Below, piece by piece: positions 7,644 through 37,066 of a DNA stretch of 39,767 nucleotides. The DNA lies in assembly GCA_903927025.1 (NCBI GenBank), contig CAIYLG010000032.1:1-39767 (forward strand), read 5' to 3'. The stretch is from an uncultured Armatimonadota bacterium. Its GTDB lineage: Bacteria; Armatimonadota; Fimbriimonadia; Fimbriimonadales; Fimbriimonadaceae. The position numbers and the translations under genes are program-made. Every line of letters starts with the position of its first letter. The stretch's first letter is position 1. The notes below the pieces were generated by a model, which saw nothing but the letters and a program-made list of their open reading frames with translations, ran no database searches and had not been told where the DNA came from.

Positions 7644-9902
7644 TCAAGTCCTTTGGACGACCGACCAGATGAGGTTCACGATATCGTCTTTGAAGATGTC
7701 GTCATGACCACCGCCGGTAGCGGCGGACCCGCGAAATACGATCCGGCTCGCGTCGAGGTTTAAGAAGCGGTTGGGGTGCAGAGTTACCTCTTTTGGTGGT
7801 TCTGCGAGCATCGCAAATTCGCCGCCTTTACCGAGTTCAGCCGGAGGGATCGGTGTCTTGCAGCTTCCAACATATCCAGCACCTAGCCGACCGTTGTTGG
7901 CAAACGGATACCAAAAGCCGTTCGCGGTGTCGTACTTGGAATAGATGGTTGCGTAACTCGTTAGTTTGTCCGCCCATTCCTGCTCGCCGCGAAGCCAATC
8001 GCTCGACATCGCGCCTTGTAAAAGAACGACGTTCGTCACTCGGTTTTGAATGTCCAGGGTCTTTTCTTCGCCAACGTCAAAAAGAGCACGAAGCGCACGG
8101 AGTTTCTTGTTCCGTTTTGGCGCTGGTATTCCAACTCCCCCCTTAAAGGCACAGAACATTCGACGCGCCGCATTGAGCACGACGAGCCCACCAAAACTGT
8201 GTCCTATAAAGTGGATCCTCGCATTCCTGACATCCGGGCATTCGCTGGCCAACAGATTCATAAAGCGGCCGAAGTCGTCGCCAGCATCCACACCCTTTCG
8301 CTGCAGTTCAAAGAAGGCGAGCTGATTCTGGATTAATCCGGCGAGTTCGTAAACCGCACTATCAGGGCCAACCGAACCGCGGACCATATTGATTGGCCAC
8401 CGCGCAAATCCTGCCCAGTAGTCGCGGAAGGTCCACGGCTCGTCCCCTGCCCTGCGAAGCCGTTCACCAAAGACACCGTGAATCGAACGACCGGAAAAGT
8501 ATTTTGCATAGGCTGAGATCAGGCTGATCAATACGACTGCCCCCACAGTTCCCCATGACCACTCTGGACTAAGCGTCTGCTGGTATGCCAAATAGCCCAG
8601 TGGAATCGCAAAAAGAACATATGCTGTGCGAAAAATCCAGGAAGCAAGCAGAAGGAAAAGAACCGGCAGGGTGTGAATGATCTGAACGGGAAGCCAAGCA
8701 ACAACTAACCCCACCGGCCAACCTTTTGATGCCTTGGCCCGACCATCGTTCTTGGCTACATTCCACGCATAGTAGCTTGCGAGAACAACGATGGCGACGA
8801 CGTAGACCAACAGAATAATAGCGGTGACGAATACTTCTGGCGTGGCCCAAAAGCTGTGTTTTCCCCTAGTTAGTTGAACAGGTTCTGCCCAATGTTGATA
8901 GTTGGTAAGCGATCGATCATAGGCATCTGCGAAAAGCGTGCGAGCTGGTTTTGAAAGCGCCGCAATCAAACTACCTATCGGTAAGCCTAGGCTCATGGCA
9001 AACCCAGCAATGGTACGTATGACGCTCCATGGCGAGCCAACCGGCCGCGCGCGCTCCGATTGATCGACCAGCACCTGAAGCTTGGCGGTCTCGTTGAAGC
9101 AACCCCAGAGTGTTGTCAGAATCGCGGCAGAATCGACGTCTCCACCTGCCGGACCTTGCCAATCTCTCAACTGGGCGACATCAAGTAAATCCGCGGTCGC
9201 CTTCAAGGCCTCTCTATCGGCATTAACGCTGACCGCTTTCACATCGGGTGCCGAGATCGTGCTCATGAATGCAAATGCCCCTTCAAGAGCGTTTATGAGC
9301 TGAGCACGTGACTTCTTCGGTTTTGGTTCAAACGCGGCCAAACAACGTTGAATAAAATCGCTCTTCTCGCGGCGTCCGCCCGGATCAACCCAAGCATCTT
9401 CGCCGGGGTCGGAATGCCAGTGACAAGCAATGTAGATGGATCCTGGAATAGGTTCGATCCGATTCCGACCCACTAGACCGAAGAATTTTGCCAGCAACCG
9501 GTCGTACGCGGCCACGCCTGCATAGAAGTTCCGGTGCCAGCCGTGACTCATGAGGAATACGTCTGTCAAGGGCCTCCCCTGCTCTCTAAGGTGGGAGCAG
9601 ACCAGCTGAATCTCTTCTCTAAGGAGTTGATGCTCTCCCGCACAAGCTTGTTCTAACAGTGGTACGAGGAAATAGGCGCGCTGATGCCGCAAGTCAGGGG
9701 CCACGCCGGGCAGAACAGGAGGAATCATCCAAAGGCGTGCCCAGGCGGGATCGCGCATGGCTGAGCGAGCCATCTCCATCGTGATCGACGCAGGATAATG
9801 GATTCCGGCGGGCATACGCAATTCCCAATACCGCTTCCAAAGATTCCGTTCCCACTCGGGAAGCTCGTGTAGTGGGATCGATGGATTACTTTGATCTAGC
9901 AA
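7644..9902 (-). CDS. Membrane-embedded alpha/beta hydrolase (lipase/esterase-like)
   Basis: This is a 752-residue protein of no named family that I recognise. It shows the parts of an alpha/beta hydrolase: HGW at 120-122 after a hydrophobic strand (oxyanion loop), the nucleophile elbow GHSFGG at 567-572, and a late histidine in GGGHDDIF (733) that fits the triad. The stretch between oxyanion loop and nucleophile is unusually long. It holds about four hydrophobic segments (around 357-379, 397-424, 426-441 and 449-466), so the catalytic domain is probably split around a membrane anchor. There is no signal peptide. The substrate is unknown; a lipid-like or ester substrate near the membrane is plausible. 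Confidence 0.65.
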   Translation of the reverse strand: MLDQSNPSIPLHELPEWERNLWKRYWELRMPAGIHYPASITMEMARSAMRDPAWARLWMIPPVLPGVAPDLRHQRAYFLVPLLEQACAGEHQLLREEIQLVCSHLREQGRPLTDVFLMSHGWHRNFYAGVAAYDRLLAKFFGLVGRNRIEPIPGSIYIACHWHSDPGEDAWVDPGGRREKSDFIQRCLAAFEPKPKKSRAQLINALEGAFAFMSTISAPDVKAVSVNADREALKATADLLDVAQLRDWQGPAGGDVDSAAILTTLWGCFNETAKLQVLVDQSERARPVGSPWSVIRTIAGFAMSLGLPIGSLIAALSKPARTLFADAYDRSLTNYQHWAEPVQLTRGKHSFWATPEVFVTAIILLVYVVAIVVLASYYAWNVAKNDGRAKASKGWPVGLVVAWLPVQIIHTLPVLFLLLASWIFRTAYVLFAIPLGYLAYQQTLSPEWSWGTVGAVVLISLISAYAKYFSGRSIHGVFGERLRRAGDEPWTFRDYWAGFARWPINMVRGSVGPDSAVYELAGLIQNQLAFFELQRKGVDAGDDFGRFMNLLASECPDVRNARIHFIGHSFGGLVVLNAARRMFCAFKGGVGIPAPKRNKKLRALRALFDVGEEKTLDIQNRVTNVVLLQGAMSSDWLRGEQEWADKLTSYATIYSKYDTANGFWYPFANNGRLGAGYVGSCKTPIPPAELGKGGEFAMLAEPPKEVTLHPNRFLNLDASRIVFRGSAATGGGHDDIFKDDIVNLIWSVVQRT

Positions 9903-19252: not shown

Positions 19253-19281
19253 TTGCCTGTTTCCTCATCTTCAAGTAAAAT
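19253..19281 (+). promoter_or_regulatory. Sigma70-type promoter of the sugar-nucleotide operon
   Basis: TTGCCT (19253-19258), a 17-bp spacer, and TAAAAT (19276-19281). Transcription would start near 19288, leaving about six bases before the ATG at 19294, and there is no Shine-Dalgarno sequence. Confidence 0.55.
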
Positions 19282-19293
19282 AGAGACCTATTT

Positions 19294-20196
19294 ATGTCTG
19301 ATTTGAAAGGAATTGCAAATAACCTGGTGGTGCTCTCAGGCGATCATAACGGTGTCGCGCTGAAAGAGATCGTAAAGGCCGAACTGAATAAGCTAGGTCG
19401 CCACTGCATCGACATCGGACCCTACTCTCCGGATATCAAAGTCGACTACGTGGACTATGCGACCACCCTCGGAAAGATTGTCGACTCCGGTGACTGTGCA
19501 TGGGGAGTTCTCATCTGCGGAACAGGTATCGGAGTGAGCATTGCCGCCAACCGATTCCAAAACGTTCGAGCCTCCGTGGTTCATGACCTGAACGTAGCCG
19601 TGAAAACACGCGAGCACAACGACTCCAACGTTATCTGCTTGGGCAGCTGGGTGAATACAGACGAAGTAAACATTGAAATCCTCCGCGCCTGGGCCGGCGA
19701 GCCATTTGGCGAGGGACGTCATGTCAAGCGCGTCGAAAAGACCAAGCGGCAGGATAAGGATAAGGTGGTCTTCACCAACGGCATCTTCGACCTCCTCCAC
19801 GCAGGTCACATCAATCTTCTTAATTTCTCCAAATCCCTTGGTGGCAAGCTGGTGGTTGGCATCAACTCAGATAGAGCGACAAAGCTCCTGAAGGGTAACG
19901 ACCGTCCCATCAACAACGAGCAGGACCGCAAGGCAATTCTAGAGACGCTCACCTGCGTCGACGAGGTCATCATCTTCGATGACGTCACTCCCACCGAACT
20001 GGTGAACTCGCTCCACCCGGACATCCTCGTCAAGGGTGCTGAATGGACAAGCGACGAAGTGCGTCAGCGAGACAACGTCCCAGACGACATCGAGATCAAG
20101 GTTTTCCCCCTCCTCTACAAGGGTGGAAGCAACGCGAAGTATTCAACGACGTCGTTGGTGGAAAAGGCCCGCGTAGGCAACGACTCGGCAAGCTGA
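19294..20196 (+). CDS. Fusion: RpiB/LacA-type sugar-phosphate isomerase plus HldE-C-type nucleotidyltransferase
   Basis: Residues 1-145 are an RpiB-family aldose-ketose phosphate isomerase: the GDHNG start, DYVDYA, catalytic C75 in LICGTGIGVSIAANR, and REHNDSNVICLG. Residues 155-295 are a HxGH nucleotidyltransferase like the C-terminal domain of HldE/RfaE (TNGIFDLLHAGHINLL with HAGH at 169-172, VGINSD, KG motif). In E. coli that domain joins to a kinase and makes ADP-heptose from heptose 1-phosphate; here it is joined to an isomerase instead. The gene leads the operon and its stop overlaps the kinase start (TGATG). Isomerase substrate: ribose 5-phosphate is the family norm, but a heptulose phosphate is suggested by the context. 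Confidence 0.88.
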   Translation: MSDLKGIANNLVVLSGDHNGVALKEIVKAELNKLGRHCIDIGPYSPDIKVDYVDYATTLGKIVDSGDCAWGVLICGTGIGVSIAANRFQNVRASVVHDLNVAVKTREHNDSNVICLGSWVNTDEVNIEILRAWAGEPFGEGRHVKRVEKTKRQDKDKVVFTNGIFDLLHAGHINLLNFSKSLGGKLVVGINSDRATKLLKGNDRPINNEQDRKAILETLTCVDEVIIFDDVTPTELVNSLHPDILVKGAEWTSDEVRQRDNVPDDIEIKVFPLLYKGGSNAKYSTTSLVEKARVGNDSAS

Positions 20197-21227
20197 TGAA
20201 ACAGGATTCGAATACGCCCGCCAGCGTAGGGGTACCTCTACGCTCAGAAGACTGTCTCAGCAAGTCTGAGGCTAAGCAGATGATCGAGGGCTTTGCGTCC
20301 AGCAAAGTTCTCATGATCGGCGACATCATCCTCGACGAGTATCGCTGGGGAACGGCGCTTGGCCTGTCTGCAGAGACTCCCACCATCGTAGCAAAAGATG
20401 ACAAAACCACCGTGTCCATTGGTGGTGCAGGCCTCTACTGTAGAAATATGCTCGCCTTAGGCGGCCAGGTGAAATTCATCTCCCTGATTGGCGGAGACGA
20501 ATTCCGTCGCTTCGCCAAAAGCTTCCGACACAAGAACCTCTCAAAGGCATTCTTCGAGGACAAGACCCGAAAGACGACAGTCAAAAGCCGGTTCTGGGTC
20601 AGCGGCTACAAGCTGCTCCAGTGGGACCAACTCGACAACAGATTTATTTCAGAAGAGTTGGAATCTCAGATTCTCGCGATGATCGAGAAGGACCTGCCTG
20701 AGTACGACAAGCTGGTGGTTTCCGATTATCGTCACGGTCTCATCAGCGAGGGTATGGCTGCAAAGCTGGTCCAAGTTGCCAAGAAGCATGGCAAGCCGAT
20801 CTACGTGGATTCTCAAGTCTCGCAGCGTGCAGGCAACCACCGATGGTACGTGGGGGCGGACTTCTTCTGCGTCAATGAGCGGGAAGCGTTAACGGTGGAT
20901 GCCGATTTTCTCAACCGGTCCATTCCTGATTCGCTCGCAGCCATCACCGCTGAACTCAAGGCGGGCACCGTCTTGGTCAAGCTCGGTGAGCGCGGCTGCT
21001 CCGTGATGATCGATTCCAAAATCGTTTCCGTCCTTCCTCCACCCACTGAGGTGCGGGACACTTCCGGAGCGGGAGACGCCTTTTTCTCCGTGCTTTCACT
21101 GGCCAAGGGCGACCTCACCGAAAAGCATCTTGCGATGGCCAACCGTTGGGCTTCGCTCTCAACAACCATCAAGGGAGCACAGCCTCCAACCCTGTCGATG
21201 CTATTCGATAGCTTCCCTAAGCGCTGA
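20196..21227 (+). CDS. PfkB-family sugar kinase, HldA/RfaE1-like
   Basis: The start at 20196 overlaps the previous stop by one base; the frame runs back to 20043 but that part reads as a shadow of the fusion gene. The protein has 343 residues. Ribokinase-fold motifs match the kinase half of HldE: IGDIILDEYRWG, the GGAGLYCRNMLALGG segment, and the anion-hole signature DTSGAGDAFFSVL near the C-terminus. HldE-N phosphorylates D-glycero-D-manno-heptose 7-phosphate at O1. An adjacent HldE-C-type domain in the fusion protein supports the same role. Confidence 0.85.
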   Translation: MKQDSNTPASVGVPLRSEDCLSKSEAKQMIEGFASSKVLMIGDIILDEYRWGTALGLSAETPTIVAKDDKTTVSIGGAGLYCRNMLALGGQVKFISLIGGDEFRRFAKSFRHKNLSKAFFEDKTRKTTVKSRFWVSGYKLLQWDQLDNRFISEELESQILAMIEKDLPEYDKLVVSDYRHGLISEGMAAKLVQVAKKHGKPIYVDSQVSQRAGNHRWYVGADFFCVNEREALTVDADFLNRSIPDSLAAITAELKAGTVLVKLGERGCSVMIDSKIVSVLPPPTEVRDTSGAGDAFFSVLSLAKGDLTEKHLAMANRWASLSTTIKGAQPPTLSMLFDSFPKR

Positions 21228-21235
21228 AATCCACC

Positions 21236-21964
21236 ATGAACATGCACCATTACGGCCTCGAAGTTGACAAGCTCCAGTCGCTCATCGCAACGCCAACTCA
21301 CCACGACACCGCTTACGGAACGCATGGCGTAGTCGCAGAAGCAGACGACTATCGCCTCGAACGATGGTTTGTGAAGAGCGGAGAGACTCTGAGCCTCACC
21401 ATTGAAGCAGGCCGAGAGCTCACACTTTTTGTCGAAGACGGGCTCGTTGGCGTAGGTGATGAGGAAGTTGCGAAGCACAAGCAGATCACTCTCGCACCAG
21501 GAACCACGATAGAATTCTTGGCCAAGTCAGATTCCGCTCTATATGGATTCAGCGGTCTGATTGACGAATCAAGTCTGACCAGTGGCTACAGAATTGCCTC
21601 GCCAGATGACTACCGAGACAAGTATTGGGGAAGCATCCAAACGATGGTCAACGCCATCTACACGGGAAAGCGCCTCTTCTTTGGCAAGGGCCAGCACAGC
21701 AGCCTCCACTTTCACTGCAACAAGCTGGAGCATTACTACATCCACACCGGCAAGCTCCTGGTCCGTTTGCGAGCAGGCCGTGGTGAAGATCGTCTGTTCA
21801 CCCTGAACCAGGGAGATACGCTGCTGATTCCGCCCGGTCTCATGCACCAGGATGGTGGTTTGGAAGACACCGTCATTATCGAAGTTTCGACGCACGATGT
21901 GGACAGCGACTCATTCATCGTGGAAGACGGCGCGACGATGGAAATGCCTGGATTCGGGTCATGA
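21236..21964 (+). CDS. Two-cupin protein, possible sugar-phosphate isomerase
   Basis: This 242-residue protein seems to hold two cupin barrels. The first (about 25-105) is degenerate. The second (about 145-225) has metal ligands H158, H160 and E165 in SSLHFHCNKLEHYY and H204 in IPPGLMHQ. That arrangement resembles type II phosphomannose isomerase and lyxose isomerase cupins, which interconvert aldoses and ketoses. It lies between the kinase and the phosphatase; its stop overlaps the next start (ATGA). A role as isomerase or epimerase in the sugar pathway is likely but not certain. Confidence 0.7.
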   Translation: MNMHHYGLEVDKLQSLIATPTHHDTAYGTHGVVAEADDYRLERWFVKSGETLSLTIEAGRELTLFVEDGLVGVGDEEVAKHKQITLAPGTTIEFLAKSDSALYGFSGLIDESSLTSGYRIASPDDYRDKYWGSIQTMVNAIYTGKRLFFGKGQHSSLHFHCNKLEHYYIHTGKLLVRLRAGRGEDRLFTLNQGDTLLIPPGLMHQDGGLEDTVIIEVSTHDVDSDSFIVEDGATMEMPGFGS

Positions 21965-22326
21965 GCAAGAAGGTCGTTTTTGACCTAGATGGAACGCTGT
22001 GCACGTCCTCGGCGCCAGACTACGAAAATGCTCAGGCCATTCCCGAGGCAGTGGAAGTGGTCAATCGACTTTATGATGAGGGCTTCACCATCCTCGTCTA
22101 CACCGCAAGGTTTATGGGCCGCAACGGCTCAGACATACACAAGACCTACCACGAAGGCTACGACTTTACAAAGAAGCAGCTTGAGAAGTGGGGAATCAAG
22201 CATCACCGACTGATGATGGGCAAGCCGCCCGCAGATGTTGTGATCGACGACCTGGCTGTGTTCTTTCAGCCAGATTGGAAGGAAATCGAAAAACGAATTC
22301 GAGAGAAGGTTGGGGACTCTAAATGA
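21961..22326 (+). CDS. Minimal HAD-family phosphatase
   Basis: The product has 121 residues with no cap domain. Motif I is VFDLDGTLC (Asp nucleophile and DxD), the threonine motif II is in LVYTARF, a lysine precedes in the FTKKQLEKWGIKHH region, and motif IV is VVIDDLA. It is similar in size to small HAD proteins of capsule and LPS loci. In the heptose pathway a HAD enzyme (GmhB) removes the 7-phosphate; this one could do that step. It overlaps both neighbours by 4 bp. Confidence 0.82.
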   Translation: MSKKVVFDLDGTLCTSSAPDYENAQAIPEAVEVVNRLYDEGFTILVYTARFMGRNGSDIHKTYHEGYDFTKKQLEKWGIKHHRLMMGKPPADVVIDDLAVFFQPDWKEIEKRIREKVGDSK

Positions 22327-23063
22327 AGCTATACGTTGACACCGCAAATTTGGTCGATATCGAGCAGGCGCTCGATCTCGGCATCGTCGAAGGCATTACG
22401 ACCAATCCATCGCTCTTTGCAAAAGAGCCAAAGTCGGACTACATCGCCCATCTGCAGAAGATTGTCGATCTGGCCCACAAGTACGGCGGAACTCAGTCCC
22501 TCAGCGTGGAAGTTTTCAGCGCTGACCCTAAGGAGATGATTGTCCAGGGCGAGCAGTTCGTTAAGGAACTCAACTACCCACACCTCCGCGTTAAGGTTCA
22601 GGTCAGCTACAAAGGGACCAGCTACCTCAACGTCGTTCGTGAATTCTCACAGCGCGGAATCCCAGTCAACTGCACCGCACTGATGACGCCTGTTCAGGCA
22701 ACGATGGCCGCCGCAGCGGGCGCCAAATACGTCAGCCTTTTCTACAACCGAATCAAGGATGGCCTCAACGGGTTTGAAGAGGAGCGAGCAGCCCTCCTCG
22801 GTGCTGGAGTCGTCGATATGACTGACTTCGACCCCAATAACGTGGTTCGCGAAACACGAGATCTCATTGAGAACTATCCCAATGCAGAAATCATTGCGGG
22901 AAGCATCCGAAATGTTCTAGACGTCAAGTACGCAGGCTTGGCCGGTGCACACATCGTTACCGTCGGACCCAAGATCCTGAACCAGGCGATGGGGCACTAC
23001 AAGACCGATGAAGCGGTTGGCCAATTCCTTACGGACTTTGCCAAGTGGCTGTCCACGGAATAG
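22323..23063 (+). CDS. Transaldolase, TalC/fructose-6-phosphate aldolase-like
   Basis: This 246-residue class I aldolase barrel begins MKLYVDTANL..., with the conserved GITTNPSLFAKE and the Schiff-base lysine K91 in LRVKVQVSYKG. NCTALMTPVQA and IIAGSIRNVLDV follow as in the family. Such enzymes transfer dihydroxyacetone units, giving fructose 6-phosphate or sedoheptulose 7-phosphate, the entry substrate of heptose synthesis. Its place inside a sugar-activation operon suggests it supplies the C7 precursor rather than serving general pentose metabolism. Confidence 0.88.
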   Translation: MKLYVDTANLVDIEQALDLGIVEGITTNPSLFAKEPKSDYIAHLQKIVDLAHKYGGTQSLSVEVFSADPKEMIVQGEQFVKELNYPHLRVKVQVSYKGTSYLNVVREFSQRGIPVNCTALMTPVQATMAAAAGAKYVSLFYNRIKDGLNGFEEERAALLGAGVVDMTDFDPNNVVRETRDLIENYPNAEIIAGSIRNVLDVKYAGLAGAHIVTVGPKILNQAMGHYKTDEAVGQFLTDFAKWLSTE

Positions 23064-23091
23064 TCGGGCTGATCTAAGAACAGCTTAAACG

Positions 23092-24192
23092 ATGTCAGGC
23101 AAACAGAGAATCCTGGTGCACAGCATCGGCAGCTTAGGTGACACTATTGTCACCATTCCTGCCCTGCGAGTGGTTCGGCGGCGATACGGCAGCGATGCCG
23201 AGATCACGCTCCTCAGCGACGTCACACAGCCTGACATCGTGAAGGCAAAAGATGTGCTTGAAGGCACTGGTCTGGTCGACAAGTACCTGGAGTACAAGAT
23301 TGCCGGCGGTGCCAAGGCAATGCTTCCCTCCGTGTTCAAGCTGTGGAAGATGCTTGTCGGCGGAAAATTCGATGCAGTCGTCTATCTGATGACCAGCGAG
23401 AGGTCCGCAAAAGCCGTCCAGCGAGATGAACTCTTTTTCAAACTAGCAGGCATTAAGAAGCGCTATGGCTTTGAGCCCTTTAGCGATGAGTACCTCTACC
23501 CCCGTGACGAACGGGGCCGGCCCAAACAGGTGCCCCACGAGGCGGTAAGGCGCGGTGAGCGGCTTGAAAAGTACGGATTTGGCAAGCTTCAGCACGATGA
23601 CCTTTACGAGGCATTTCTCATCCCGCCGGATGCCGCCAGCGAAAAGGCGATCAGTTGGCTGAACGAGCGTCGACAGTTCCCGGACAAGGTTCTGGTTGGC
23701 TTCTGCCCTGGAACCAAAATGCCGTCCAAGCGATGGCCACTGGATCGATTTGAGGAGATCGGCCGGCGCCTCATCGCAGATGGCAGATTCGAAATCGTGG
23801 TTGGCGGCGGGCCGAATGATGCTGCCGACGCAAAGACGCTCATTGCGGCTTGGGGACAGGGCCTGAATGCTGCCGGCGAGTTCTCGGTAATGGGTTCCGC
23901 CGCCCTCCTGCATCAATGCTCATTCATCGTCTCTGTCGACAGCGGCCCGATGCACTTAGCTGGTGTTGGTGGCGTGCCCTGTGTCTCCATCTTCAGCTCC
24001 ATCGACTTTCCGGGGCGGTTTAGCCCGCTTGGCAAGGGGCATATCCTCCTCCGCTACGATGACGTGGACTGCTCCGCGTGCCGGAACCCTAACTGCCCAG
24101 TGAAGGGGCATCCGTGCATGACAGCCGTCACCGTTGAGCAGGTTTGGGATGCTGTGAAGAAGGTCTCTGGCGAAATCGGCCACCCGCTCTGA
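23092..24192 (+). CDS. Glycosyltransferase family 9 (heptosyltransferase-like)
   Basis: This 366-residue GT-B enzyme starts with the GT9 motif (HSIGSLGDTIVTIPALRVVRR). It has the C-terminal donor-site motif VSVDSGPMHLAGVGGVPCV and the CSACRNPNCP...PCM cysteine cluster typical of ADP-heptose:LPS heptosyltransferases. It acts at the inner face of the cytoplasmic membrane on LPS core or a similar acceptor. It lies 28 bp after the transaldolase and probably uses the sugar nucleotide made by the operon. Confidence 0.88.
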   Translation: MSGKQRILVHSIGSLGDTIVTIPALRVVRRRYGSDAEITLLSDVTQPDIVKAKDVLEGTGLVDKYLEYKIAGGAKAMLPSVFKLWKMLVGGKFDAVVYLMTSERSAKAVQRDELFFKLAGIKKRYGFEPFSDEYLYPRDERGRPKQVPHEAVRRGERLEKYGFGKLQHDDLYEAFLIPPDAASEKAISWLNERRQFPDKVLVGFCPGTKMPSKRWPLDRFEEIGRRLIADGRFEIVVGGGPNDAADAKTLIAAWGQGLNAAGEFSVMGSAALLHQCSFIVSVDSGPMHLAGVGGVPCVSIFSSIDFPGRFSPLGKGHILLRYDDVDCSACRNPNCPVKGHPCMTAVTVEQVWDAVKKVSGEIGHPL

Positions 24193-30670: not shown

Positions 30671-30705
30671 AATGAGAGAGTTGAACGGTGTTCGACTCTC
30701 TCATT
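30671..30705 (+). terminator. Strong hairpin after osmC
   Basis: The arms 30671-30686 and 30690-30705 pair over 16 positions (one U-G) around the loop GGT. The outer 11 bp are perfect. No T tract follows. Its position rules out a start for the next gene before 30705. Confidence 0.6.
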
Positions 30706-30738
30706 CCGGAGTCGATTTCCTTTAAACTGTCGGGTGAC

Positions 30739-32733
30739 ATGTTCAACCGAAACCCCCGAGTCGTATCGGCACTGATGCTGACTGCGACCGTGTCCATGGC
30801 AGGGCGCGCACAGCAGGATCTGAGACCATTCATCAGCCCGATGTTCACCAGCAACATGGTGCTTCAGCGAGGCATGAAAGATCCCGTTTGGGGATGGGCC
30901 GCGCCAGGCACAGCAGTGACTGTTTCCATCAACGGTCAGGACACCTCGACGACGGCAGGTTCCGATGGCAAGTGGCAGGTCAAAGTTGGCCCGTTGCCAG
31001 TAGGCGGTCCCTACACGATGACCGTCACGGGCCCCCAAACGATCAAGTTCGACAATATTCTCGTCGGCGACGTCTGGATCTGTTCGGGACAGTCGAACAT
31101 GGAAATGGGAGTAGGGAACCTTAAGGATCCTGATGCAACCATTTCAGCCGCTAACTACCCAACTCTTCGGCTGTACGCGGTTCCAAAGATGATCTCCGCC
31201 GAGGCGCTGTCCTCGACCTCAGGCAATTGGCAGGAGTGCACCCCTACCGCGCTGCGAAAGGATGGGGATTGGGGTGGATTTTCGGCCGCCGCCTACTTCT
31301 TTGGCAAAAAATTGAACGAGGATCTCAAGGTCCCAATCGGACTGATTCACACAAGCTGGGGGGGAACGCCAGCTGAGGCGTGGACGAGCGAAAAGGAGCT
31401 TGGAGACCACCTTCCAGAATTTCAGACCTATCTTGCCCAGTTGGCCACTTTGCGAGAGTCAAGAAAGCACAAGACCGAAAATGGCATCGACCCGTTTGCC
31501 GAGTGGTACCAGAAGAATGACCCCGGAACCGGAACCTCGGCTGCCTGGGCTGCCGCCGACCTCAACGACTCCTCCTGGAAGTCGTTGAACCTTCCCGGGT
31601 TTGTTCAAGATTCCGGTATCCCCGAACTCAAGAATCCGGAGAGCGTGTTTTGGCTCCGACGCACCGTCGAACTGACCGCCGACCAAGCCGCTCAGGCGGC
31701 AACGCTCAACTTCGTCGCAGATGATAACGATACGACGTGGGTAAATGGAGTCAAGGTCGGCGCCACCGAAGGTTGGAATACTCCTCGGCAGTACAAGATC
31801 CCATCGGGAACGCTTCATTCGGGCAGCAATTCTATCTCCGTACGGGTGACGGATACCTCGGCACCAGGGGGCATCTACGGCGATCCAAACGGCTTGTTCC
31901 TCCAAGTGGGAGGAGAGAAAGTATCTCTTGTTGGAAGTTGGAAGGTGAAGCTTGGCGTTGCCATTTCGGCAAAGAACGCGCTTCCAGCGACCATTCAGCA
32001 GAATCCAAATTTCCCCTCTGTTCTCTATAACGGAATGATCCAGCCCCTCGTCCCCTACGGCGTTAAGGGAGCCATCTGGTACCAGGGTGAGAGCAACGCA
32101 GGAAAGGCATTCCAGTATCGAACCCTTCTTCCCACGATGATTGAGTCTTGGCACAAGAGCTGGGGCCAGGGATCGTTCCCATTCCTCATTGTTCAGCTCG
32201 CCGGATTTGGCCACCCTGCCACGATTCCGGGTGACGATGCCTGGGCCGAACTTCGGGAAGCTCAATTCCTCACCACGAAGAAGGTGAAGAACGCAGGGAT
32301 CATGACCGCTGTCGACATTGGCGAAGAGAACGACATTCACCCGAAGAACAAGATGGAAGTGGGCCGCCGTCTCGCGCTGGTCGCAGAAGCCTCCGACTAC
32401 CACATGAAGGTGGAGAGTTCCGGACCTGTCTACAAGTCTATGAGAGTTGAGGGTGGTGCCGTTCGCATTTCCTTCGAGCATGCCAAGGGTCTTCAGTCGG
32501 TGGGAGGAAATCTCAAAGGATTCATCATCGCTGGAGCTGACCATAAGTGGACTTGGGCCGATGCGAAGATCGACGGAAACAGCGTCATCGTCTCGGCTGC
32601 ATCGGTACCCAATCCGGTTGCCGTGCGCTACTCCTGGGCAAGCTTCTCAGACAGCAATTTGGCCAATGGCGAGCGGCTGCCTGCGTTTCCATTCCGAACG
32701 GATGACTGGAAAGGCATAACCGGCGGCAAGTAG
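30739..32733 (+). CDS. Secreted sialate O-acetylesterase
   Basis: The start at 30739 gives a signal peptide ending AGRAQ (about residue 24). The SGNH-type nucleophile is in CSGQSNMEMG (S119). LIHTSWGGTPAEAW, IWYQGESNA and a C-terminal EENDIHPKNK (Asp/His) complete the catalytic blocks of this family. Residues about 230-400 carry the jelly-roll insert (FWLRRTVELTADQAAQ, then WVNGVKVGATEGW) common in these enzymes. It removes acetyl groups from sialic acids or acetylated polysaccharides. The secreted peptidase encoded next suggests joint attack on glycoproteins. Confidence 0.92.
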   Translation: MFNRNPRVVSALMLTATVSMAGRAQQDLRPFISPMFTSNMVLQRGMKDPVWGWAAPGTAVTVSINGQDTSTTAGSDGKWQVKVGPLPVGGPYTMTVTGPQTIKFDNILVGDVWICSGQSNMEMGVGNLKDPDATISAANYPTLRLYAVPKMISAEALSSTSGNWQECTPTALRKDGDWGGFSAAAYFFGKKLNEDLKVPIGLIHTSWGGTPAEAWTSEKELGDHLPEFQTYLAQLATLRESRKHKTENGIDPFAEWYQKNDPGTGTSAAWAAADLNDSSWKSLNLPGFVQDSGIPELKNPESVFWLRRTVELTADQAAQAATLNFVADDNDTTWVNGVKVGATEGWNTPRQYKIPSGTLHSGSNSISVRVTDTSAPGGIYGDPNGLFLQVGGEKVSLVGSWKVKLGVAISAKNALPATIQQNPNFPSVLYNGMIQPLVPYGVKGAIWYQGESNAGKAFQYRTLLPTMIESWHKSWGQGSFPFLIVQLAGFGHPATIPGDDAWAELREAQFLTTKKVKNAGIMTAVDIGEENDIHPKNKMEVGRRLALVAEASDYHMKVESSGPVYKSMRVEGGAVRISFEHAKGLQSVGGNLKGFIIAGADHKWTWADAKIDGNSVIVSAASVPNPVAVRYSWASFSDSNLANGERLPAFPFRTDDWKGITGGK

Positions 32734-32814: not shown

Positions 32815-35013
32815 ATGAATATTGCCACAATTCTTTTGGCCAGCATGGGAATGCTGGCCAACCAAACTGGACCCACGCAGGATCGCATCGAGCTCATACG
32901 GGGAGTTGGAGAGATCGCTGCTCCTCAAGCCAGCCCCGGTGTTTTGAGCGTATCGGGCAAGGCCTTTGTTTTTGCGACGGGAACTCAGAGCAAAGGTAGG
33001 GTTCCGATCTTCGCGGCGGTTCCCGTCGAGCGTGGGCGGGCAGTGGCGGCGAGTCACGAACGGTTCTTCTCGGAAATTGCCCTCAAGAATGGAGGCAACG
33101 GCCGTTTGCTGGGCAATATTCTCAGTTGGCTGGGGCGCAAACCCGTCGGCAGCCTGAGGGTTGGGTTGATGGGTTACGACTCAATGGCCCCCGCGCTGCG
33201 AGCCGCTGGCATCTCTGTCAGCCCTGTCACTGTCGAAACCCTACAGGGTGTGCTTGGAAGTCTTGATGTCATCTGCGCCACAATGCCCGCCCTAGAGCAG
33301 TCGCGCGGCGCTCAGGTGGCTTTGATGCGCTTTGTGAAATCAGGTCACGGGCTCTTTCTCGCCAGTGCAGGATGGGGCTGGAGTGTGCAACACCCCAATC
33401 AAAACTTGCTTGCGGATCACCCGGGCAATCAGATGCTGTTCCCTTACGGCATTTGCTTCACTCAGGATACCGCGAATCAAACCTATCTACTCCAGACGGA
33501 TGACAGCACCCTGTTCAACACAGACGGCGCTCTAGAGGCTCTGAAATCAAAGTCGCTTTCCGTTGTGGATCGAACGACTGCAGTCTTTACGGTCGAGCGA
33601 GCCCTCTCATTCTTGCCGCCCGAAGCTCCAGGACTCCCTTCCCAAATAGATGCCGGAGCGGCAACAGATCCTGGAGGCGGGATACCGTCGGTTGACAATC
33701 CCATCACTCCGGACAAGCCTTTCTCCCGTCTCAAAGCGTGGTTGGATTATCGCCGCATCCTCTCAGTGCCCGTTAAAATGCTTAAGGCGCACCCGTCGGC
33801 GCAGTTCTTTCCAGGATCCGTTCCTGCATCGGCCGCTCGAGTCACTCGCTCGCTGGTCATCGACACATCCATCAGCGATTGGCACAGCACCGGCTTCTAT
33901 GCGGCGCCGGGCGAACTGATCCAGATCCAGATACCCGAGGAGGCGACCAAGGCTGGCCTCCGAGTTCGGATTGGACCCCACTTTGATCGGCTGTGGCAGC
34001 TGGATAGCTGGCCCCGGTTTCCAGACATCTCACTGATTCGGTCACTCCCCTACGAGGAGAACCAGGCGGCGAGCCCATTTGGAGGAACGATCTATATCGA
34101 GGTACCTCCCCAGTGTCACCTTGGCAAGGTGAGCGTAGGATTCAAGAATGTCGTTCCGGCCGCGTGGTACGTCAAGGGGCAAACCACAGCTGCCCAATGG
34201 AAGCAGATGATCAACGGTACTTCAGCTCCATGGGTCGAGCTTCAAGGGGATCTCGTGATCCTTTCCGTGCCGCTGAGTTCTGCCAAGACAATTGTCGACC
34301 CCGCCCCACTCATGAACTATTGGGATCAGGTGCTCAAGGAATGCTATGCATTTTATGCAACACCTCGTCGGACCCGGCAAGAGCGGTACTGCACGGATGT
34401 GGAAATCAGCGCAGGATACATGCACAGCGGCTACCCGATCATGACCCACATGGATGTCGCGGACACCATGTGCAGCCTCCCCAAGCTTCTGTCAAAAGGG
34501 AAGAGTTGGGGATTCTATCACGAGGTCGGCCACAACTTCCAGGCTTCGCCGTGGACTTGGTCCGGCACTGGGGAAGTGACCAACAACCTATTCTCGCTGT
34601 ACGCCAGCGAACGGATGAATCGAATTACTCCCCACACCTATGGTGAGGCGCATCCCGCGATGGACCCGCAAAAGTGCAAGGATCGGTTGAAGAAGTACCT
34701 TGCCTCAGGTGCCCATTTCGAAGATTGGTGCAAGGACCCGTTCCTCGCCCTCACGATGTTCGCCCAGCTTCGTCAGGCTTTTGGCTGGGATCCGTTCACA
34801 CGTCTGTTCGCCGAGTATCAAGAGATGCCAGTGACTCAGTGGCCCGCCGATGACACCGCCAAGCGAGACGCGTTCCTCGTGCGGTTCTCCAAGCTGGTTC
34901 AACACGACCTGGGACCGTTTTTCCAGGCATGGGGGATTCCCACCAGCCCTGCGGCCAGAGGAGCTGTGCTTGGGTTACCAGCTTGGATGCCTTCCGATTG
35001 GCCGGTCAAGTGA
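32815..35013 (+). CDS. Secreted M60/enhancin-type metallopeptidase (mucinase-like)
   Basis: This is a 732-residue protein. AAGGGAA stands just before the ATG, and a short hydrophobic N-terminus (ATILLASMGMLA) is the likely signal. The M60 motif is complete: HEVGH at 569-573 followed by GEVTNN with E587, and DVADTMCS before it. The region about 450-700 is the peptidase M60 domain. Residues 100-260 include a Rossmann-like segment seen in such proteins (GSLRVGLMGYDSMAPALRAAG). M60 enzymes cut O-glycosylated proteins such as mucins. Confidence 0.88.
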   Translation: MNIATILLASMGMLANQTGPTQDRIELIRGVGEIAAPQASPGVLSVSGKAFVFATGTQSKGRVPIFAAVPVERGRAVAASHERFFSEIALKNGGNGRLLGNILSWLGRKPVGSLRVGLMGYDSMAPALRAAGISVSPVTVETLQGVLGSLDVICATMPALEQSRGAQVALMRFVKSGHGLFLASAGWGWSVQHPNQNLLADHPGNQMLFPYGICFTQDTANQTYLLQTDDSTLFNTDGALEALKSKSLSVVDRTTAVFTVERALSFLPPEAPGLPSQIDAGAATDPGGGIPSVDNPITPDKPFSRLKAWLDYRRILSVPVKMLKAHPSAQFFPGSVPASAARVTRSLVIDTSISDWHSTGFYAAPGELIQIQIPEEATKAGLRVRIGPHFDRLWQLDSWPRFPDISLIRSLPYEENQAASPFGGTIYIEVPPQCHLGKVSVGFKNVVPAAWYVKGQTTAAQWKQMINGTSAPWVELQGDLVILSVPLSSAKTIVDPAPLMNYWDQVLKECYAFYATPRRTRQERYCTDVEISAGYMHSGYPIMTHMDVADTMCSLPKLLSKGKSWGFYHEVGHNFQASPWTWSGTGEVTNNLFSLYASERMNRITPHTYGEAHPAMDPQKCKDRLKKYLASGAHFEDWCKDPFLALTMFAQLRQAFGWDPFTRLFAEYQEMPVTQWPADDTAKRDAFLVRFSKLVQHDLGPFFQAWGIPTSPAARGAVLGLPAWMPSDWPVK

Positions 35014-35030: not shown

Positions 35031-36095
35031 ATGGCTGCAACAATGAAGGGTGCCATTCTGCCGGGCAACAGTACGGCAGAACTTCGTGAATTTGAGATTC
35101 CCAAGCCGGGTCATGGCGAGGTGCTCATCCGGATGAAGTCGTCTACGATTTGCGGAAGCGACATCCGCTGCATCTACCGTGAACACCTCGGCAAGGGGCC
35201 GGAGGGGTATCAATCGGGCATGATCGCCGGTCACGAGCCCTGCGGCCAGATCGTTGAATGCGGTCCCGGAATGCGCCGGTTCAAGGTGGATGATCGGGTG
35301 ATTGTCTATCACATCAGCGGATGTGGCGTTTGCAACGATTGCCGTCGCGGATACATGATCTCCTGCTCCAGCCCCTACCGCCGAGCCTACGGTTGGCAGC
35401 GAGACGGCGGAATGGCGGAATACCTGCTCGCCGAAGAAAAGGACCTGGTGCTTCTTCCCGAATCGCTTTCCTATACGGATGGCGCCCAGGTTGCCTGCGG
35501 TTTTGGGACCGTTTACGAAGCGATCCAGAAAATTGGGGTCTCCGGAGACGACGCGGTGTTGGTCACCGGCCTGGGGCCGGTCGGACTCGCGGCTTTGATG
35601 CTTGCGAAGGCAAAGGGTGCAAACCTCACCATCGGTACCGACGCGGTGCCGGAACGGCTGGAGCTTGCCAAGCAGCTGGGGCTGGCGGATCATGTGATTC
35701 CCGCCGGGCCAGATGCCCTTGCTCAGATCCTCGATGCTACCGGCGGGTTTGGGTGCGAGCGCGCGATCGACTGCTCTGCCAATGATAAGGGGCGTCTCAC
35801 TGCCATCCAAGGCACCCGGAAGTGGGGCAAGCTCGCTTTCGTAGGGGAAGGCGGTTCCTGTTGCTTCCAGCCCTCACCCGATATCATCCACGACCAAAAG
35901 ACGATTTATGGCTCTTGGGTCACCAGCATTTGGCTTATGGAGGAGCTCGTCGAAAAGCTCGTGAGGTGGAACGTCCACCCCGCTGACCTTGTGACTCACC
36001 GATTTGGTCTGGACAGTGTTGCCGATGCTTACGCCCTGATGGCGGAAGGTAGATGCGGCAAAATCGCGATTGCGTTTGATGAGGAGCTTTCCTGA
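35031..36095 (+). CDS. Zinc-dependent alcohol dehydrogenase (MDR family)
   Basis: The product has 354 residues. Catalytic zinc ligands are C41 (STICGSDIR) and H68/E69 (AGHEPCG). The structural zinc site is C98, C101, C104 and C112 ([16 protein letters not shown]). The Rossmann motif is GLGPVG at 180-185. It resembles threonine/sorbitol dehydrogenase-type members; the substrate is probably a sugar alcohol or related polyol. The stop overlaps the next ATG (TGATG), so it works with the aldo/keto reductase that follows. Confidence 0.9.
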
Positions 36096-37066
36096 TGAGT
36101 GTCCCTTTTGCCCAGCTTTGGAACGGTTCAAAAATGCCCATGATCGGTCTGGGCACGTTCGGATCCGATAAATACAGCGGTGCTGACGTCGCCGAAGCGG
36201 TCCTCGGGGCTGCTGAGGTTGGCTACCGTCACTTCGACTGTGCTGCCGTGTACAGCAACGAGGCCGAGGTGGGCCGATCTCTGGAACAGCTGATCCGGGG
36301 CGGAATTCCGCGTGAAAAGCTGTGGGTCACCTCAAAGCTCTGGAACGATAAGCACGCGGAAGCAGACGTGATTCCTGCCTTCGAGCGTTCTCTTACTGAT
36401 CTCCGCCTCGACTACCTAGACCTGTACCTGGTGCATTGGCCGTTTCCCAACTTCCATGCTCCTAAGGTCGATGTCACCTCGCGGGATCCCCACGCCAAGC
36501 CGTATATCCACGAGGACTTCATGCGAACCTGGCACCAGTTGGAGGTGCTTGTGGATCGCGGCCTCGTCAAGAACATCGGCACCTCGAACGTGACCATCAC
36601 CAAGCTCAAGCAGATCCTTCGAGATGCCGACATCAAGCCGGGTGTCAACGAGATGGAACTCCACCCCCATTTTCAGCAGCCGGCCCTATTCGAATACGTC
36701 GTTGCAAATGGCATCGTGCCGGTCGGCTACTGCCCGATCGGGTCACCAAGTCGGCCCGAGCGAGACCGAACGCCGGAAGACACCGTGGACATGGAAGACC
36801 CCGTGATCCTCGAGATCGCGGCGCGTCGCGGACTTACTCCCGCCAGCGTCTGCATCGCCTGGGCTGTCCAGCGTGGCCAAGTCCCGATCCCGTTCTCCGT
36901 CAAGCGGCATCAGTACGAGGAAAGCTTCAAAGCCGCCGCTGGCGACCTGCTTTCTGCGGAGGACATGCTCGCGATCTCCAAGATCGACCGCAACTGCCGC
37001 CTGATCAAGGGACAAGTCTTCCTCTGGGAAGGCGCACCCGGCTGGGAAGCCCTCTGGGACGAGTAG
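36095..37066 (+). CDS. Aldo/keto reductase
   Basis: The product has 323 residues. The tetrad is D48, Y53, K81 and H114 (FDCAAVYSNE, VTSKLWND, YLVHWPFP). TSN, NEMELHPHFQQ and IPFSVK follow. It differs in sequence from the two reductases near 4-5 kb and is closer to aldose-reductase-like members. It is translationally coupled to the zinc dehydrogenase; the pair could interconvert a sugar and a polyol. Confidence 0.9.
   Translation: MSVPFAQLWNGSKMPMIGLGTFGSDKYSGADVAEAVLGAAEVGYRHFDCAAVYSNEAEVGRSLEQLIRGGIPREKLWVTSKLWNDKHAEADVIPAFERSLTDLRLDYLDLYLVHWPFPNFHAPKVDVTSRDPHAKPYIHEDFMRTWHQLEVLVDRGLVKNIGTSNVTITKLKQILRDADIKPGVNEMELHPHFQQPALFEYVVANGIVPVGYCPIGSPSRPERDRTPEDTVDMEDPVILEIAARRGLTPASVCIAWAVQRGQVPIPFSVKRHQYEESFKAAAGDLLSAEDMLAISKIDRNCRLIKGQVFLWEGAPGWEALWDE

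Follow-up and report, generated by a model that had tools for sequence, protein, structure and literature searches.

An uncultured Armatimonadota bacterium carries a candidate mobile sugar-nucleotide module that has an RpiB-family isomerase and no GmhA

Only a few routes to activated heptoses have been described, and sugar nucleotides shape the surfaces of phages and bacteria. The ADP-heptose pathway runs through GmhA, HldE, GmhB and HldD. The GDP-D-glycero-D-manno-heptose pathway (GmhA, HddA, GmhB, HddC) gives a D-glycero heptose nucleotide without HldD, by way of a GHMP kinase, a nucleotidyltransferase of another family and a GmhA-like SIS isomerase. Here we describe a six-gene operon at positions 19294-24192 of the window, a 39,767-nucleotide stretch that is a whole contig (C32) of the assembly GCA_903927025.1 (5.25 Mb, 98% complete) from an uncultured Armatimonadota bacterium. 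With the ADP-heptose pathway the operon shares, in order, a PfkB kinase, a phosphatase, an HldE-C nucleotidyltransferase and a GT9-family transferase. It differs from that pathway in having an RpiB-family isomerase and not GmhA, and a small EcbF-like HAD phosphatase and not GmhB; it also adds a dedicated transaldolase and a cupin, scores under the HldE equivalog cut-offs and, as in the GDP-heptose pathway, contains no HldD. We propose with moderate confidence that this operon is one copy of a mobile sugar-nucleotide module, that is, a dedicated route to a nucleoside diphosphate (NDP) sugar with more than five carbons, probably a heptose made from sedoheptulose 7-phosphate (S7P).

The isomerase and the nucleotidyltransferase form a single 300-aa protein, so that seven activities are carried by six genes. 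The isomerase part belongs to the RpiB fold family (PF02502, 144 bits), which is not the fold family of GmhA, and keeps the catalytic positions Asp17, His18, Cys75, Thr77, His108, Arg142 and Arg146. Its residue 119 lies 11 residues past the ring-opening His, ungapped, and matches His102+11 of Mycobacterium tuberculosis RpiB. There, Arg113 touches the substrate phosphate and covers part of the pocket, while LacAB, a hexose-phosphate isomerase, uses another Arg in place of this contact (PMC3755991). The Arg contacting the C5 phosphate is replaced by Trp119 in every module RpiB (20/20, and 22/22 in a kinase-seeded set, 18 of which lie on contigs new to the analysis) and Trp is found at this position in none of 87 other RpiBs, where it is mostly Arg (69) or Asp (14). 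Trp119 was part of no scan pattern. A second signature, Asn19, is present in 22/22 of the kinase-seeded set; in the first RpiB set it is partly biased because the scan pattern included DHNG. Module RpiBs form one clade (support 97/87), within which the operon RpiB clusters with Doudnabacteria in a group from the Candidate Phyla Radiation (CPR; support 100/98). That all module RpiBs lack Arg113 speaks against ribose 5-phosphate as their substrate and for one that is probably longer. The AlphaFold2 (AF2) model of the fusion (predicted local distance difference test score, pLDDT, 74; predicted template modelling score, pTM, 0.49) was too weak and was not used.

The kinase-seeded set came from a scan of viral contigs with a kinase alignment; the kinase was used as the seed because searching with RpiB would have biased co-occurrence. 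The scan gave 71 distinct kinase loci, 22 with RpiB and 49 without. Transaldolase was present in 22/22 RpiB-positive loci versus 3/49 RpiB-negative ones, cupin in 22/22 versus 6/49, the HAD phosphatase in 18/22 versus 4/49, and AraD, a class II aldolase matching L-ribulose-5-phosphate 4-epimerase models, in 18/22 versus 0/49. SIS/GmhA showed the opposite distribution, with 0/22 versus 29/49 (Fisher p ~6e-7, kinship of the loci ignored). The initial annotation had proposed that a non-GmhA isomerase takes the place of GmhA, and the mutual exclusion of RpiB and SIS/GmhA, the separate clade and the changed substrate-site residue all agree with this; its suggestion that the precursor source is built in is likewise borne out by the invariable pairing of transaldolase with RpiB. 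It was also right that the operon contains neither GmhA nor HldD: domain and own-genome searches placed neither a SIS isomerase nor HldD nor a class II aldolase in the window, and the own-genome matches all lie on other contigs. A GmhA-independent sugar-nucleotide route is thus a well-backed prediction.

The module is widely scattered. An alignment-based scan of viral contigs yielded seven full-length orthologues of the fusion (49-56% identity; loci L080-L086), and ten more were found among 84,980 bacterial and archaeal species (51-66% identity; L104-L113), giving 17 fusion loci in total. Their hosts include CPR bacteria (Doudna-, Taylor-, Kaiser- and Parcubacteria) and, beyond these, an archaeal metagenome-assembled genome (MAG), MAGs of Longimicrobiales, Acidobacteria and Proteobacteria, Pelagibacteraceae and Prochlorococcus. 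Kinase, cupin, transaldolase and HAD are nearly always present where the contig is long enough, and most fusion loci add AraD; L087 and L088 carry the same gene set with RpiB unfused. All six components (Trp119 RpiB, HldA-like kinase, HldE-C nucleotidyltransferase, cupin, transaldolase and HAD) are co-located in the window, and because many loci unrelated to one another share this gene set, the operon is not a chance grouping. Within the phylum, the fusion is absent from 290 other sampled genomes, and the fusion, cupin and HAD, used as queries at genus and phylum level, found no orthologous operon. Searching relatives for the same operon, as the initial annotation had advised, therefore gave none in the phylum, while the operon recurs in distant bacteria, viral contigs and an archaeal MAG. 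Because the phylum lacks the fusion and the RpiB groups with Doudnabacteria, the operon was likely acquired horizontally and its base composition ameliorated; its GC content and that of third codon positions (GC3) equal those of the flanks, so there is no compositional sign of recent transfer. Plasmid searches gave RpiB and HldE matches only as separate genes, and a single-protein cupin scan of viral contigs gave no matches. In Rhizobium CB3090 (H1), what looked like a fusion adjoins a kinase match and was judged to be an ordinary HldE. Two near-identical modules (L107 2672-5975 and L109 204-3507) come from contigs assigned to Longimicrobiales and Acidobacteria bins; either the binning is wrong or a transfer took place very recently. 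A literature search limited to open-licence PMC papers turned up no publication that describes the fusion or the module.

We favour S7P as the precursor because the transaldolase has a transaldolase-type active site and the kinase, nucleotidyltransferase and GT9 protein have heptose families as their nearest families. Transaldolases are marked by Phe and Glu, fructose-6-phosphate aldolases (FSA) by Tyr and Gln. In the operon enzyme, whose best solved relative (3r8r) is itself a transaldolase, the catalytic Schiff-base Lys91, Phe140 and Glu63 are invariant (15/15 aligned). The closest solved structure to the kinase is a heptose-7-phosphate kinase (4e84). None of the three heptose-family proteins reaches its equivalog cut-off: the kinase scores 179 bits against 345 (TIGR02198), the nucleotidyltransferase 146 against 181.5 (TIGR02199) and GT9 89.6 against 134.6 (TIGR02195). 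The small HAD, with 9iqw as its nearest solved structure, is EcbF/BcbF-like and not of the GmhB type; it is a candidate sugar-bisphosphate phosphatase.

In the proposed pathway, the transaldolase would form a ketose phosphate, most likely S7P, and the RpiB domain with its remodelled phosphate site would convert the ketose to an aldose 7-phosphate, the role of GmhA. The HldA-like kinase would then phosphorylate C1, the small HAD would remove the terminal phosphate, the fused nucleotidyltransferase would form the NDP-sugar and GT9 would move the sugar onto a surface glycan. To our knowledge, all RpiB-family products (ribose, allose, galactose and erythrose phosphates) have the C2 hydroxyl on the right; the product of GmhA is manno, with the opposite C2. 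This stereochemistry predicts the gluco series and not manno, so that S7P acted on by RpiB would give D-glycero-D-gluco-heptose in this operon. In copies bearing AraD, C4 would be inverted beforehand, leading to D-glycero-D-galacto-heptose. We infer the substrates, the stereochemistry, the nucleotide, the order of steps and what the cupin does. The full version of this proposal, a horizontally spread and previously undescribed pathway to gluco or galacto NDP-heptoses from S7P that large phages, CPR bacteria, marine bacteria and an archaeal MAG would have in common, in which RpiB takes over from GmhA and AraD, where present, sets C4, is put forward only tentatively.

Several points weigh against a heptose product. 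The reading draws on comparative evidence, with enzyme activities that are predicted; the kinase and the nucleotidyltransferase fall below the heptose equivalog cut-offs; and the co-occurrence p-values ignore the relatedness of loci, although the pattern is still nearly all-or-none. Moreover, pentulose chemistry is suggested by AraD, which most copies carry, and the cupin is as exclusive of GmhA as RpiB is and is seen without RpiB, so that it could be an isomerase or epimerase.

The AraD point leads to an NDP-pentose route, in which AraD, encoded in the operon or in trans, would interconvert xylulose 5-phosphate and L-ribulose 5-phosphate, RpiB would form an aldopentose 5-phosphate, and kinase, HAD and nucleotidyltransferase would produce an NDP-furanose, e.g. 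of L-arabinofuranose or ribose. Both RpiB and AraD bear the names of C5 enzymes, an AraD-family epimerase accompanies most viral and genomic modules, and the source genome has an AraD-like gene on another contig (C61). However, this route leaves the ever-present transaldolase unexplained, and the Arg113 contact for ribose 5-phosphate is gone in every module RpiB. Furthermore, AraD is missing from the stretch in the window operon, in L105 and in four viral modules (L189, L198, L211 and L219, ~1/5 of the viral modules); AraD is therefore optional, and we regard a pentose product as unlikely. No RpiB sequence feature convincingly split AraD-bearing from AraD-less modules.

In a second alternative, the cupin would be the ketose/aldose isomerase or epimerase that replaces GmhA, and RpiB and transaldolase would first build another skeleton, e.g. 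octulose 8-phosphate from ribose 5-phosphate and a C3 unit. Among the viral kinase loci, SIS occurs in 0/28 cupin-positive versus 29/43 cupin-negative ones. In addition, kinase, nucleotidyltransferase, cupin and HAD occur together without RpiB or SIS in the stretch in four viral loci (L218, L255, L259 and L262, which also have no transaldolase there) and in two cyanophages (L068 and L069). Since the cupin excludes SIS and occurs without RpiB, we place it in the part of the pathway that these loci share. Its best family matches include sugar-isomerase families, and a fold search with its AF2 model (pLDDT 93, a bicupin fold) returned an IolB-like neighbour; the C-terminal domain retains an HxH...E...H metal motif. 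Nevertheless, the family matches are weak, the other fold neighbours are generic bicupins, and the changed phosphate site suggests a new substrate for RpiB and not plain ribose 5-phosphate. We therefore give this alternative a low probability. A functional link between cupin and HAD is supported by the Doudnabacteria locus L104 (4445-5545), where the two are fused into one 366-aa protein.

An organism without the standard heptose front end, as first supposed, is not what the assembly shows: C15 carries a near-canonical gmhA (180 bits, cut-off 209), a fused hldE (450, cut-off 521) and gmhB (161, cut-off 178). For HldD, by contrast, no match in the genome exceeded the cut-off, the best being GalE; the search for a complete set elsewhere thus found gmhA and gmhB and did not find hldD. 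C22 encodes a housekeeping RpiB. With these genes in place, the operon is dispensable for both standard jobs and serves something additional, probably a pathway to a different sugar and not a GmhA bypass to the same heptose. A route in which RpiB simply stands in for GmhA as a non-orthologous enzyme, and which ends in the usual D-glycero-D-manno-heptose nucleotide, would fit the HldA-like kinase, HldE-C-type nucleotidyltransferase and GT9 and the exclusion of GmhA by RpiB, but is quite improbable given the genes on C15, an RpiB-family stereochemistry that leads to the C2 epimer, and a kinase and nucleotidyltransferase diverged from the heptose equivalogs. Thus, of the variant route that the initial annotation had suggested, the self-contained non-GmhA set is supported and the bypass is not, with a heptose predicted as the most likely product. 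A further set on C62 (L016 9562-13771), comprising a GmhA-like SIS protein, a transaldolase, an HddA-like kinase, a nucleotidyltransferase and GalE, resembles the GDP-heptose pathway and is possibly another heptose nucleotide route.

Six plus-strand open reading frames (ORFs) fill the operon (Table 1). In gene order, the junctions are a 1-nt overlap (TGATG, 20194-20198), an 8-nt gap, two 4-nt overlaps and a 28-nt gap, which confirms the tight spacing noted initially; each activity named at that time was found by domain search against Pfam and NCBIfam, with the correction that isomerase and nucleotidyltransferase are fused and not separate proteins. The kinase ORF can be extended upstream to 20043, but that start is an artefact, as the ATG at 20196 overlaps the stop codon of the fusion and gives a length in keeping with that of relatives (253-369 aa). 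Elsewhere in the window, an M60 (enhancin-like) peptidase with an M60-like N-terminal domain (32815-35013) is preceded by a SASA-type esterase gene (30688-32733) and followed by an alcohol dehydrogenase (ADH) and aldo/keto reductase pair (35031-37066). Two long ORFs, 484-2337 (617 aa) and 7644-9902 (752 aa), have no Pfam match at E 1e-5.

Table 1. Coordinates of the operon genes and associated features in the window
Feature	Position	Strand	Evidence
RpiB-family isomerase (~residues 12-152) fused to HldE-C-type nucleotidyltransferase (~155-292)	19294..20196	+	PF02502, PF01467/TIGR02199; full-length orthologues L080-L086, L104-L113
Trp119 codon in RpiB domain	19648..19650	+	M. tuberculosis RpiB Arg113 position; catalytic His+11
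HldA-like PfkB sugar kinase, 343 aa	20196..21227	+	TIGR02198; 4e84
Two-domain cupin	21236..21964	+	Weak Cupin_2/PMI-C matches; AF2 model; orthologues in module loci
Small EcbF/BcbF-like HAD phosphatase	21961..22326	+	TIGR01689, BT0820-family, phrog_1238; 9iqw
TalC-type transaldolase	22323..23063	+	PF00923; 3r8r
GT9 (heptosyltransferase-family) glycosyltransferase	23092..24192	+	PF01075; TIGR02195; GT9-like neighbours in several module loci
Weak promoter-like sequence 5' of first gene	19253..19281	+	9/12 consensus matches; site count about that of shuffles

If the proposed heptose module is real, unannotated sugar loci of phages and uncultured microbes would become predictable and testable through Trp119 and through the presence or absence of AraD, a possible stereochemical switch. 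The module further suggests leaving RpiB, talC and araD genes out of counts of pentose-phosphate or arabinose metabolism when they lie in phage loci of this kind. In the cyanophages, the genes annotated as phosphoheptose isomerase and cysteine dioxygenase (L068 7417-7755 and 6941-7417; L069 6760-7083 and 7043-7420) are by hidden Markov models (HMMs) this pathway's small HAD and cupin, respectively, which rules out the former as GmhA; both labels are doubtful, and PHROG 1238 and 7851 bear the same ones.

Compared with the RpiB and LacAB isomerases, module RpiBs have the same fold and catalytic residues, and LacAB, whose substrate is longer, likewise lacks the Arg113 contact; module RpiBs differ in the Trp at the Arg113 position, the fusion to a nucleotidyltransferase and their separate clade. 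The cyanophage sugar loci (P-TIM68, S-CAM1) share the HldA-like kinase, HldE-C nucleotidyltransferase, cupin and small HAD with the operon and differ in that the stretch contains neither RpiB nor transaldolase. Finally, the arabinosylation genes of RB69-type phages are also phage-encoded sugar-nucleotide genes that include a sugar isomerase, but there the isomerase domain in the fused protein is of the SIS type and the proposed product is UDP-arabinose for DNA (PMC6024577).

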